DNA of 64,000 bases, taken from NCBI RefSeq assembly GCF_002797715.1, contig NZ_PGFF01000001.1, positions 1,635,304 to 1,699,303 on the forward strand. The letters run 5' to 3'. A program made the translations under genes and the position numbers. This document shows, piece after piece, positions 8,343-55,360 of the stretch. This stretch comes from Diaminobutyricimonas aerilata. GTDB lineage: Bacteria; Actinomycetota; Actinomycetes; Actinomycetales; Microbacteriaceae. Every line of letters begins with the position of its first letter. Position 1 is the first letter of the stretch. Under the pieces are notes generated by a model that searched no databases, had not been told where the DNA came from, and saw only the letters and a list, made by a program, of their open reading frames with translations.

Positions 8343-8439
8343 GTCGGAAATTCAGGATCCGCGGGCCGCGCGGAGCCGGGTCGACCCGGAATCGCGCGGC
8401 CCGCGTCGTCGCTCCCCGCCCCGCTCCTGAATTTCCGAC
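8343..8439. repeat. Palindromic element, copy A (97 bp)
   Basis: Perfect 15-bp inverted arms GTCGGAAATTCAGGA (8343-8357) and TCCTGAATTTCCGAC (8425-8439). The interior holds ACCCGGAATCGCG at 8384-8396, the reverse complement of the family core; the core therefore lies 46 bp from the right end (minus polarity). It sits between the exporter terminator and the leuA leader promoter. Confidence 0.9.
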
Positions 8440-18792: not shown

Positions 18793-18890
18793 GTCGGAAA
18801 TTCAGGAGTCCCGCTCGCGACCCGATAGCCGAGCCGTGTGATTCCGCGGCGGCGCATACGCCCGCCGGTGGCGGTTCCTGAATTTCCGAC
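18793..18890. repeat. Palindromic element, copy B (98 bp)
   Basis: Perfect 15-bp inverted arms at 18793-18807 and 18876-18890. The core GATTCCGCGG starts at 18840, 47 bp from the left end (plus polarity). It lies 28 bp downstream of uppS. Confidence 0.9.
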
Positions 18891-18986
18891 GTCTCGGCCC
18901 GGCCTCTTCCACGCACCCCGAGCCCGGTGAGGAGGCGCACGACGGGCCGTGCGCGGACCGCGCACGACGCGCTCGAGTGCGGGCTT

Positions 18987-19084
18987 GTCGGAAAGTCAGG
19001 AGTTTGCGCGTGGGAGCGGGCGGCGGGCCACGCGATCCCGGGGGTGCGAACGAGTTGACCGACTGGCACTCCTGAATTTCCGAC
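18987..19084. repeat. Palindromic element, copy C (98 bp)
   Basis: Left arm GTCGGAAAGTCAGGA (one change) at 18987-19001 and perfect right arm at 19070-19084. The core GATCCCGGGGGTG is at 19034-19046, 47 bp from the left end (plus polarity). Its start is 194 bp after that of copy B. Confidence 0.9.
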
Positions 19085-27516: not shown

Positions 27517-28899
27517 GTGGCGACCACTGCACTCGATTCCGTCATCTCACTCGCGAAGCGTCGCGGCTTCGTCTTCCAATCGGGCGAGATCTACGGCGGA
27601 TCCCGGTCCGCGTGGGATTACGGACCCCTCGGTGTGGCGCTCAAGGAGAACATCAAGCGCCAGTGGTGGCAGCAGCTCGTGCAGGGCCGCGACGATGTCG
27701 TCGGTCTCGACTCCGCCGTCATCCTGCCCCGCAAGGTGTGGGAGGCATCCGGACACGTCGCCGTGTTCAGCGACCCGCTCGTCGAGTGCCTGCACTGCCA
27801 CAAGCGCTACCGGGCCGACCACCTGCTCGAGGAGTTCGAGGAGAAGAAGGGCCGCGCGCCCGAGAACGGCCTCACCGACATCGCGTGCTCGAACTGCGGC
27901 ACCCGCGGCCAGTGGACGGAGCCGCGCGAGTTCAGCGGGCTGCTGAAGACCTACCTCGGGCCGGTCGACGACGAGGCGGGCATGCACTACCTGCGTCCGG
28001 AGACGGCGCAGGGCATCTTCGTCAACTTCGCGAACGTCCTGTCGGCGGCGCGCATGAAGCCGCCGTTCGGCATCGGTCAGATCGGCAAGAGCTTCCGGAA
28101 CGAGATCACGCCGGGCAACTTCATCTTCCGCACGCGCGAGTTCGAGCAGATGGAGATGGAGTTCTTCGTCGAGCCGGGCACCGATGAGGACTGGCACCAG
28201 TACTGGATCGACGAGTCGTACCGCTGGTACCGCGACCTCGGGCTCAAGGAGGAGAACCTCCGCCTCTTCGAACACCCGCAGGAGAAGCTGAGCCACTACT
28301 CCAAGCGCACCGTCGACATCGAGTACCGCTTCGGCTTCACGGGTGGCGAGTGGGGCGAGCTCATGGGTGTGGCGAACCGCACCGACTTCGACCTGACCAC
28401 CCATTCCGAGGCATCCGGAACCGACCTGTCGTACTTCGACCAGACGAAGAACGAGCGCTGGACCCCGTACGTGATCGAGCCGGCGTTCGGCCTCACGCGT
28501 GCGCTCATGGCGTTCCTCATCGACGCGTACTCCGAGGACGAGGCGCCGAACACGAAGGGCGGCGTCGACAAGCGCACCGTGCTGCGGCTCGACCGGCGCC
28601 TCGCGCCGGTGAAGGTCGCCGTGCTGCCGCTGTCGCGCAACGAGCGTCTCTCGCCGGTCGCGCGCGACCTCGCCGCCGACCTGCGCAAGTACTGGAACAT
28701 CGACTTCGACGACGCGGGCGCCATCGGCCGCCGCTACCGCCGCCAGGACGAGATCGGCACCCCCTTCTGCGTCACTGTCGACTTCGACTCCCTCGACGAC
28801 CAGGCCGTGACGGTGCGCGAGCGCGACACGATGTCGCAGGAGCGCATCTCCCTCGACAACCTGCGCGGTTACCTCGCGGGCCAGCTCCTCGGCGCCTGA
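27517..28899 (+). CDS. glyS: Glycine--tRNA ligase (dimeric, class II)
   Basis: A 460-residue alpha2-type glycyl-tRNA synthetase. It starts [27 protein letters not shown]. Class II motif 2 is in [23 protein letters not shown], motif 3 in the C-terminal [13 protein letters not shown], and an anticodon-binding domain covers the last ~100 residues. A CxxC pair near residue 91 (CLHCHKRY) and another in CSNCG form the insertion typical of this form. I chose the GTG at 27517 because AGGAGA is correctly spaced; an upstream in-frame GTG at 27463 lies next to the -10 box. Confidence 0.97.
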
Positions 28900-28968: not shown

Positions 28969-29065
28969 GTCGGAAATTCAGGAGTCGGGCGGTGCCCGGG
29001 GTCGGCGCACCCGGAATCGCGGCACAGCACACCGGGCACTGACCGCGCATTCCTGAATTTCCGAC
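28969..29065. repeat. Palindromic element, copy D (97 bp)
   Basis: Perfect 15-bp inverted arms at 28969-28983 and 29051-29065. The interior has ACCCGGAATCGCG at 29009-29021, identical over 13 bp to copy A and in the same orientation, so minus polarity with the core 47 bp from the right end. It is 70 bp after glyS and about 118 bp before the DUF559 gene. Confidence 0.9.
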
Positions 29066-29182
29066 GCTCTGAGCGTGGTTGTTCGGTCCCGCGCGTCCAC
29101 CACACGGCGCGACGGCTGGCCGTTGTGCACGGATCCGCGATCGACGCACCGTCGCGGGAGCCGGTTCGCGACCGTGGTCGAC

Positions 29183-30124
29183 GTGAGCATTGCGGACTGG
29201 GTGGATGAGCTGGGCGGCATGGCGCAGAAGCAGCAGCTCGTGCGTCGAGGCGCCGGCGATCGGCACCTGACCGCAGCCGTTCGTACGGGGGAGGTGATCC
29301 GGGTGCGCAACGGCTGGTACACGACGCTTCCGACCGACGATCCGCGCGTCCGTGCGGTCCGCGTCGGAGGTCGGTTGACGGGGGTCTCCGCGATCGCGGC
29401 GTGGGGAGGGTGGGTCGAGCGGTCGACGACGCTCCATGTCGCGGTGCCGGTGAACGCCGCGCGGCAGAGGTCACCGGGGAACCGTCGACGGCGACTAGCG
29501 CGCGGCAGAGACGGCGTGGTGCTGCATTGGGAGGAGCGCGAACGGTCCGCACACGGCGACAGCATGTTCGTCGGCCTGGCGGACGCACTCCGACGCGCCG
29601 CGCTCGACGAGCCGCTCGAGGTTGCCGTCGCCGCTTTCGATTGGGCGATGCGCACCGGGCGCTTCGAGCGGACGGATCTCGAACGGGTGCTGGAGGAGCT
29701 GCCCGCCCGGCTGCAGGTGCTCGCCGCTCTGGTGGACCCGGCACGCGAGTCGTTGCCGGAGAGCCTGCTCTGCACGCGCGCACGGCTGGCCGGCCATCGC
29801 GTTCGTACCCAGGTGCCGATCACCGGCACATCACAACGCATCGACGTCGTCGTCGACGGGATCGTCGCCGTGGAGGTGGACGGCCGCGAGCACCATCTGC
29901 TCACCTTCGAACGCGACCGCGCGAAGGATCTCTCGATCACCCGCGACGGGTACCACCCGCTACGGCCCACCGCGCGGCTCGTCTTCGACCGGTGGCCCGA
30001 GGTGCTGGCGGCCATCCGTGCTGCGATCGCGGCCCGCCGCTCCGCTCTCAGCGTCGGAAACTCAGGAGAACCGCCGGGCGGTCCGCCGGGACGCCGCATG
30101 CTTCCGGCCTTCGCGTCCCGATGA
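29183..30124 (+). CDS. DUF559/AbiEi-like protein with endonuclease-type fold
   Basis: About 313 residues. The N-terminal ~50 residues (SIADWVDELGGMAQKQQLVRRG) resemble the AbiEi-type antitoxin winged helix. The C-terminal third (IDVVVDGIVAVEVDGREHHLLTFERDRAKD, residues ~215-290) matches the DUF559/Vsr-like PD-(D/E)xK pattern, with Asp, V-E-V-D and a downstream Arg/Lys. No partner toxin gene is adjacent. The last ~24 residues (after AIAARRSAL) are read from repeat copy E, which supplies the stop. I chose the GTG at 29183; GTGs at 29174 and 29075 are possible. Activity is unproven. Confidence 0.7.
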   Translation: MSIADWVDELGGMAQKQQLVRRGAGDRHLTAAVRTGEVIRVRNGWYTTLPTDDPRVRAVRVGGRLTGVSAIAAWGGWVERSTTLHVAVPVNAARQRSPGNRRRRLARGRDGVVLHWEERERSAHGDSMFVGLADALRRAALDEPLEVAVAAFDWAMRTGRFERTDLERVLEELPARLQVLAALVDPARESLPESLLCTRARLAGHRVRTQVPITGTSQRIDVVVDGIVAVEVDGREHHLLTFERDRAKDLSITRDGYHPLRPTARLVFDRWPEVLAAIRAAIAARRSALSVGNSGEPPGGPPGRRMLPAFASR

Positions 30125-30160
30125 AGTACCGCGCACCAGCCTGGCTCCTGAATTTCCGAC
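30053..30160. repeat. Palindromic element, copy E (108 bp)
   Basis: Left arm GTCGGAAACTCAGGA (one change) at 30053-30067, perfect right arm at 30146-30160. About 10 bp longer than the other copies, and the GATYCCG core is not evident. It overlaps the 3' end of the DUF559 gene. Confidence 0.85.
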
Positions 30161-30235: not shown

Positions 30236-30886
30236 GTGAGTGAACCCATCAAGGTGGACATCTGGTCGGACATCGCGTGCCCGTGGTGCTACATCGGCAA
30301 ACGCAAGTTCGAGGCCGGCGTCGAACGCTTCGGCGGCGACGTGGAGATCGAGTACCACTCCTTCGAGTTGGCCCCCGACACTCCCGTCGAGTTCGAGGGC
30401 GGCGAGATCGACTTCCTCTCCGGGCACAAAGGCATTCCGCGCGAGCAGGCGGAGCAGATGATCGACCGCGTGACGCAGATCGCGGCGTCGGTGGATCTGG
30501 CCTACGACTACGACGCGCTGCAGCACACCAACACGGTGAAGGCGCACGAGCTCCTCCACGCCGCGAAGCAACACGGCGTGCAGCTCGAAATGATGGAGCG
30601 CCTCTTCTCCGCCTACTTCGTCGAGGGTCGCCACGTGGGTCGCATCGACGATCTGGCCGATCTCGCGGCCGAGATCGGCCTCGACCGCGACGAGACCCAT
30701 CGCGCCCTCGCGACGGATGAGCACCTCGGCGCCGTGCGCGAGGACCAGGCGCTCGCCCAGCAGCTCGGCATCCAGGGCGTGCCGTTCTTCGTCTTCGACG
30801 GCAGGTTCGCCGTGTCGGGCGCGCAGGACGCGGCGACGTTCGCCGACGTGCTCGGCCAGGTGCGGGATGCGAGGGCGGCCGCGTGA
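30236..30886 (+). CDS. DsbA-family oxidoreductase (FrnE-like)
   Basis: A 216-residue thioredoxin-fold protein without a signal peptide. The active site C15-P-W-C18 in DIACPWCYIGKRKFE, the cis-Pro in QGVPFFVFDGRFAVSGAQ and a helical insertion match FrnE/polyketide-type DsbA proteins, which act in the cytoplasm as disulfide oxidoreductases or isomerases. GTG start at 30236 with no clear ribosome site. The stop overlaps a 39-residue Cys protein as GTGA. Confidence 0.9.
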   Translation: MSEPIKVDIWSDIACPWCYIGKRKFEAGVERFGGDVEIEYHSFELAPDTPVEFEGGEIDFLSGHKGIPREQAEQMIDRVTQIAASVDLAYDYDALQHTNTVKAHELLHAAKQHGVQLEMMERLFSAYFVEGRHVGRIDDLADLAAEIGLDRDETHRALATDEHLGAVREDQALAQQLGIQGVPFFVFDGRFAVSGAQDAATFADVLGQVRDARAAA

Positions 30887-55074: not shown

Positions 55075-55172
55075 GTCGGAAATTCAGGAGTCGGCGGGTC
55101 GAAGGGCTGAACCTGACCCATGATCCCGGGGGTGACTCGGAGCCACTGGTGCACCGCTCCTGAACTTCCGAC
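55075..55172. repeat. Palindromic element, copy F (98 bp)
   Basis: Perfect left arm (55075-55089); right arm TCCTGAACTTCCGAC with one change (55158-55172). The core GATCCCGGGGGTG at 55122-55134 is identical to copy C and again 47 bp from the left end (plus polarity). Confidence 0.9.
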
Positions 55173-55263
55173 GCACGACCGCGGAAATGCAGCAACCGAC
55201 CCACGCGGACACTGCCCACGCCCGCACAACGGGGCCTGCGGGCGCAGCGTCGGCGCGCCCAGC

Positions 55264-55360
55264 GTCGGAAACTCAGGAGTACGGCCGTCGCGCGGGTGCG
55301 TCGAGCCCGTGAACGTGCGGGCGTCGGCGAGCGGACGCCCACCACTCCTGAATTTCCGAC
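55264..55360. repeat. Palindromic element, copy G (97 bp)
   Basis: Left arm GTCGGAAACTCAGGA with one change (55264-55278), perfect right arm (55346-55360). The core is degenerate. It starts 189 bp after copy F, nearly the B-C spacing. Confidence 0.88.

Follow-up and report, generated by a model that had tools for sequence, protein, structure and literature searches.

A DUF559/AbiEi-like nuclease gene and its cognate, helically phased inverted repeats apparently form a two-part genetic system in actinobacteria

Bacterial genes that reside next to a population of related repeats are known from the RAYT/REPIN systems. A vertically inherited gene for a Y1 (HUH) tyrosine transposase is flanked there by cognate inverted-repeat elements with further intergenic copies elsewhere, different paralogs have separate repeat families, and the elements keep their conserved arms and spacer length while the spacer sequence drifts. 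The coexistence of a resident gene with dispersed repeats is an open puzzle of this biology. Inverted repeats are also bound by the antitoxins AbiEi of Streptococcus agalactiae and Rv2827c of Mycobacterium tuberculosis, which recognise repeats in their own promoters that are separated by 3 and 13 bp; AbiEi binds its 23-bp repeats cooperatively (PMC7319586). Long two-part targets are known for the EDxHD homing endonuclease I-Bth0305I, which dimerises on nearly 60 bp (PMC3943268). In parABS and other regulator-operator clusters, the gene for the binding protein has its sites gathered around it. DUF559/AbiEi-like proteins, most of them without an assigned role, are frequent among actinobacteria.

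We analysed one such gene of Diaminobutyricimonas aerilata within a stretch of 64,000 nucleotides, hereafter the window (Table 1). The original prediction had placed it, like a passenger, between two copies of a palindromic element, one about 118 bp upstream and one overlapping its end. This layout was confirmed: the right arm of element D ends approximately 118 bp before the GTG start, element E covers the final 72 bp of the reading frame, and positions 28969-30160 run exactly from outer arm to outer arm. The bracketing also goes beyond chance, as the closest paralog (G000:C1:3277114-3278025, 79% identical) shows an equal element-gene-element layout, with one element at a nearly equal distance upstream and another over its 3' end, and the arrangement recurs in many homologs when compared with controls.

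Table 1. Features of the window (coordinates within the 64,000-nucleotide stretch; domain assignments are predictions from a structural model)
Feature	Position	Strand	Remarks
Dispersed element	8344-8438		arm match to arm match; intergenic
Dispersed element	18794-18889		first in doublet
Dispersed element	18988-19083		second in doublet
Left neighbour, class II tRNA synthetase (presumably glyS)	27517-28899	+	conserved synteny; outside the unit
Element D, upstream of nuclease gene	28969-29065		inverted arms 28969-28983 and 29051-29065, 81 bp start to start
Possible core motif CCCGGAATC in element D	29010-29018		near the dyad; fixed distance from one arm
AbiEi-fold / Vsr-EDxHD nuclease gene	29183-30124	+	GTG start at 29183; in-frame alternative start 29174; stop 30124
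Residues 1-185, predicted winged helix and second domain	29183-29737	+	AbiEi antitoxin fold (6y8q), Foldseek E 5.9e-6; Z 8.0, 174 residues
Residues 188-291, predicted nuclease domain	29744-30055	+	3hrl Z 12.2; I-Bth0305I 3r3p Z 11.5; Vsr 1cw0 Z 9.6
Element E, downstream	30053-30160		92 bp spacing; overlaps the end of the reading frame
Right neighbour, DsbA-family protein	30236-30886	+	conserved synteny; outside the unit
Dispersed element	55076-55171		first in doublet
Dispersed element	55265-55359		second in doublet

The predicted structure of the gene product (AlphaFold2, pLDDT 91, pTM 0.86) shows an AbiEi-type DNA-binding half, with the two-domain fold of these antitoxins in residues 1-185, fused to a Vsr/EDxHD-type nuclease. 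Residues 189-287 match NGO0050 (3hrl), I-Bth0305I and Vsr; the nuclease domain dominates the structural matches listed, so that the absence of other folds among them carries little weight. The predicted EDxHD/Vsr assignment is judged by the fold and by residues E193, D221, E231 and D245, which do not vary across 40 homologs, rather than by the full motif. Element E encodes the C-terminal tail, which is disordered in the model. By profile comparison the sequence matches 3hrl (E 1.6e-5) and AbiEi (E 0.001), and its scores against MTES_1575 REase (21.4 bits) and DUF559 (17.3 bits) both fall below the cut-off. The DUF559/AbiEi label of the original prediction thus finds weak backing in sequence and clear backing in the predicted structure.

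Element D is placed to be a candidate promoter inverted repeat for AbiEi-like binding, and in most units an element lies upstream, some 200 bp ahead of where the match starts. Both the AbiEi fold and the promoter binding known for AbiEi and Rv2827c (PMC7319586) would suit an autoregulated antitoxin or repressor, for which the flanking elements serve only as operator and terminator and the dispersed copies are by-products. We consider this improbable: no AbiEii/DUF1814 toxin gene is adjacent, the neighbours encoding a class II tRNA synthetase and a DsbA-family protein, a nuclease is fused to the AbiEi half, and besides the downstream copy there are tens of remote ones. The likeness to AbiEi antitoxins lies in the fold of one half, whereas the arms here are 60-104 bp apart and the elements have dispersed copies. 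I-Bth0305I and Vsr share the fold of the C-terminal domain; in contrast to them, the gene lies in neither an intron nor a phage, has an AbiEi-type DNA reader, and many intact target-like elements persist in its host.

The window holds seven elements of approximately 100 bp (95-108 bp), each with inverted arms GTCGGAAATTCAGGA (arm core TCGGAAATTCAGGA) around an unconserved spacer. At up to two mismatches, 14 arm matches occur in the window, where shuffles predict 0.07, and 70 in the genome, where the reversed control gives none (genome-wide counts derive from pattern searches and extracted stretches). Between the window unit and that of its closest paralog, DNA similarity spans the gene and not the spacers; beyond the gene, the arms alone match. 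Two genes of the window genome are exceptions in having no flanking elements: a DUF559 gene of 35% identity (L083) and the gene that matches PF04480 most strongly (L241). Many elements with 81/82-bp spacing contain a central motif at a fixed offset (6.2 bits, versus 5.4-5.6 bits for motifs fitted to spacer controls), a modest margin that makes the motif suggestive; the equivalent possible core near the dyad of Frigoribacterium elements is GGCGTGTCG. Doublets are frequent, with elements 130-200 bp apart and mostly unrelated spacers (18794-19083 and 55076-55359 in the window, several on contig C49 of genome G029).

The same association was found in relatives. A homolog passed the pair test when one 12-mer plus its reverse complement occurred both upstream and downstream of it with a score of at least 32/36. 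This was the case for 36 of 65 homologs, for none of 64 distal controls, placed some 1.1 kb away, and for none of 780 shuffles. In a second set of 72 named loci from another collection, overlapping the first in a few loci (e.g., L047/L180), 43 of 71 testable loci passed against 5 of 527 slid controls, several of these five sitting in loci that hold extra elements. Class-wide, 7 of 21 DUF559 genes scored above every one of the 20 shuffles made for each, where about one gene would be expected to do so. Roughly 40% of homologs showed no cognate pair by this mismatch-tolerant test, which was used instead of an exact 8-mer flank test that proved too weak (14/50). Cognate elements therefore flank DUF559 genes in other genomes far more often than they flank controls, and we regard the association of gene and elements as practically certain. 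Since related actinobacterial genes carry their own matching repeats, gene and repeats make up a two-part genetic system that is apparently undescribed. Some other DUF559 units have very different, highly regular arms (CCGCGTGTAGGTG, GAATCTGTGCCT and TCGCGGATCCGG at L049 of genome G017, L055 of G021 and L081 of G017).

Arms are specific to protein subfamilies (TCGGAAATTCAGGA, TCGGCAACTCCTG, CCGAAAACGAAGGAG, CTTCCGAAATGACGGA and others), and their similarity follows protein identity (Mantel rho 0.46, exceeded in 0 of 999 permutations): similar arms were found in 63-75% of protein pairs above 50% identity and in 3-4% of pairs below 40%. Shared descent contributes to this co-divergence, which consequently supports, and does not prove, recognition. 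Arm families are abundant only in genomes that possess the cognate gene. Arm TCGGAAAYTCAGGA has 26-60 matches in four genomes with close homologs and 0-4 elsewhere, arm GAAAACGMAGGA has 85, 43 and 11 matches in three genomes that carry its cognate gene and 0-3 elsewhere, and the Frigoribacterium arm occurs in 16 of 16 genomes (reversed control 0). The protein very probably recognises its arms specifically. Ordinary terminators or chance inverted repeats beside a common gene would likewise be intergenic, but the controls within the same loci, the gene-specific arms and the helical phasing leave this explanation hardly any credibility.

The spacing of the arms points to the form in which the DNA is read. 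Opposed arms lie 70-72, 81-83, 92 or 103-104 bp apart and same-direction arms mostly 33, 44-45, 55-56 or 88-89 bp, a periodicity near 10.6-11 bp that is far above a uniform null (R 0.93, 0.87 and 0.77 versus 99.9% null values of 0.60, 0.44 and 0.58). In the largest family, with 44 elements in G029, arms match within elements just as they do between elements at arm, inner and outer positions, with no extra pairing; the within-element excess of a mixed multi-genome set is attributed to differences between species, although it may be real. Phasing without a pairing excess gives the elements the appearance of sites that a protein binds in pairs on duplex DNA. The elements do not behave like the hairpins of REP systems, the precedent named in the original prediction, and a hairpin or RNA reading was discarded in view of the missing pairing signal and of Rfam, where the elements had no match of note.

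These observations also bear on a RAYT/IS200-type system, in which a Y1 transposase would move hairpins as single strands and the DUF559 gene would be incidental. The outward layout is that of REPINs, with inverted conserved arms, a kept spacer length and a resident gene alongside (PMC3116915). Nonetheless, the Y1 transposase (PF01797) is absent from the five genomes tested while control genomes score, so that the elements of these genomes need an explanation other than RAYT; with the arms tracking the DUF559 protein and no elevated pairing in the 44-element family, this reading is exceedingly unlikely. GTAG-tagged REP hairpins were not among the incidental observations. The gene-element system works like RAYT/REPIN in having cognate repeats on both sides of the gene and further copies across the genome, spacers that drift at constant length, and a separate repeat family for each paralog. 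We do not count it as a member, because two defining features are absent, the Y1 gene from the five genomes and hairpin pairing from the best-sampled family: the enzyme is of the predicted AbiEi plus Vsr/EDxHD type, and the sites are helically phased on duplex DNA. Both in its enzyme and in the form of its DNA, the system departs from all gene-repeat pairs that we could trace, and we regard it as a new category; our literature search, which covered few subscription papers, found no publication linking DUF559/AbiEi genes to dispersed palindromes.

Elements are mostly confined to intergenic DNA and tend to cluster around the gene. Coding sequence takes up 86% of the DNA (genes called by a simple codon-usage script), yet 86 of 100 elements are entirely intergenic, with every gene orientation represented; 28 of 83 lie between convergent genes, which account for 29% of intergenic bases, and thus no promoter preference is evident. 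In G029, 50 of 52 arms fall inside 129 kb surrounding the gene, against 2 expected, a second arm family being more dispersed; in G023 nearly all arms are on the 228-kb contig carrying the gene. The window genome has 15 other sites, of which 5 are no more than 40 kb from one of its two genes, where 0.7 would be expected (p 4e-4). This concentration resembles parABS and regulator-operator clusters, which differ in lacking the nuclease fold, element-bounded copying and gene-specific arm divergence seen here. Symmetric nested arrays, with two to three forward arms followed by two to three reverse arms in approximately 11-bp steps, occur at G000:C1:1921721-1922027 (L028), 2178924-2179118 (L029), 2192725-2192986 (L030) and 3125210-3125461 (L033).

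Some elements have multiplied. Two copies on C49 of G029 (122247 and 122414) match over a stretch that runs exactly from arm to arm and have different flanks (spacer alignment score 41 of 43), and two at L281 (3483-3567 and 3733-3817) are 93-94% identical over 85 bp, again with differing flanks; therefore, elements multiply as arm-bounded units, possibly with the nuclease as agent. Other duplicates form tandem arrays that repeat every 90 or 100 bp, a pattern that ordinary slippage can produce. Two genomes that are 97-99.9% identical share nearly all elements, which indicates that copying is rare or old; a single array difference between near-identical genomes was discarded as it falls on Ns. 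No clean insertion or empty site with target duplication was found, since intergenic DNA is too diverged and near-identical genomes share their elements.

We slightly favour a model in which the resident nuclease binds arm pairs and its cutting allows local copying of the elements. The winged-helix half would read the arm of about 15-19 bp, and at least two molecules (a dimer) would occupy the inverted arms on one face of duplex DNA, as we infer strongly from phasing, co-divergence and fold. The nuclease half might nick or cut near the element centre, and repair of the break could copy elements to nearby intergenic sites, so that they would accumulate around the gene; the upstream element probably doubles as an operator through which the gene controls itself, on the pattern of AbiEi. 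That cutting drives the copying is, taken by itself, not quite an even bet. Spacers are mostly unrelated between copies, so that selection on fixed sites could account for a large part of what is seen; the homologs without a pair also weigh against the model, as does G023, where the gene (L071/L258, G023:C6:176849-177750) is frameshifted and split over two frames and the full element set is retained. Binding without mobilisation would make the protein a regulator or chromosome-organising factor with a weak or repurposed nuclease, its elements being selected sites near the gene like parS near parB. The retention of arms and phasing, the symmetric arrays (+++---, steps of 33/44/55 bp) and the stability between near-identical genomes all agree with this, but we hold it to be somewhat unlikely in the face of element-bounded copies, unchanged nuclease residues in 40 homologs and indifference to promoters. 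If nuclease-driven copying fails, the finding reduces to a binding-site system that is new for the AbiEi family.

Going further, we tentatively speculate that actinobacteria could hold a large class of nuclease-repeat systems that has so far gone unrecognised and is convergent with RAYT/REPIN, in which each AbiEi-Vsr nuclease would recognise and propagate its own phased duplex elements within a local chromosomal domain. This would provide a second, independent example of a resident gene with a dispersed repeat population, built on an unrelated enzyme and on duplex rather than hairpin DNA. If every DUF559/AbiEi-like protein is matched by a DNA element of its own, sequence alone reveals what the whole family acts on, and this substrate is directly testable.

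The orthologous locus illustrates how the unit is inherited. The order glyS-unit-dsbA is common to Glaciihabitans, Salinibacterium, Frigoribacterium and others, and the flanking elements persist there across genera. In the congener G001, in G007 and in G031, the unit is absent and the glyS-dsbA gap measures 145-220 bp, close to the approximately 146 bp that lie outside the element pair in the window, which argues that the unit is gained or lost in one piece while the locus around it stays stable; the flanks are too diverged to reveal an insertion junction, and no phage or plasmid relatives were found. The gene is consequently not the free passenger that had been proposed, being vertically inherited at syntenic loci, even though the unit is gained or lost block-wise. 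Of the proposed analogy, in which a PD-(D/E)xK-type protein goes with palindromes as RAYTs go with REPs, the cognate flanking and its persistence between glyS and dsbA stand, so that neither of the two refuting outcomes stated with it occurred; the free passenger and a REP-hairpin nature of the elements do not stand. The unit-less gaps (L254, L257 and L266) contain other, unrelated strong hairpins (e.g., GGTACGTCCGTGCCCGCTCGAGCGGGCACGGACGTACC), which may be terminators or further repeat families.
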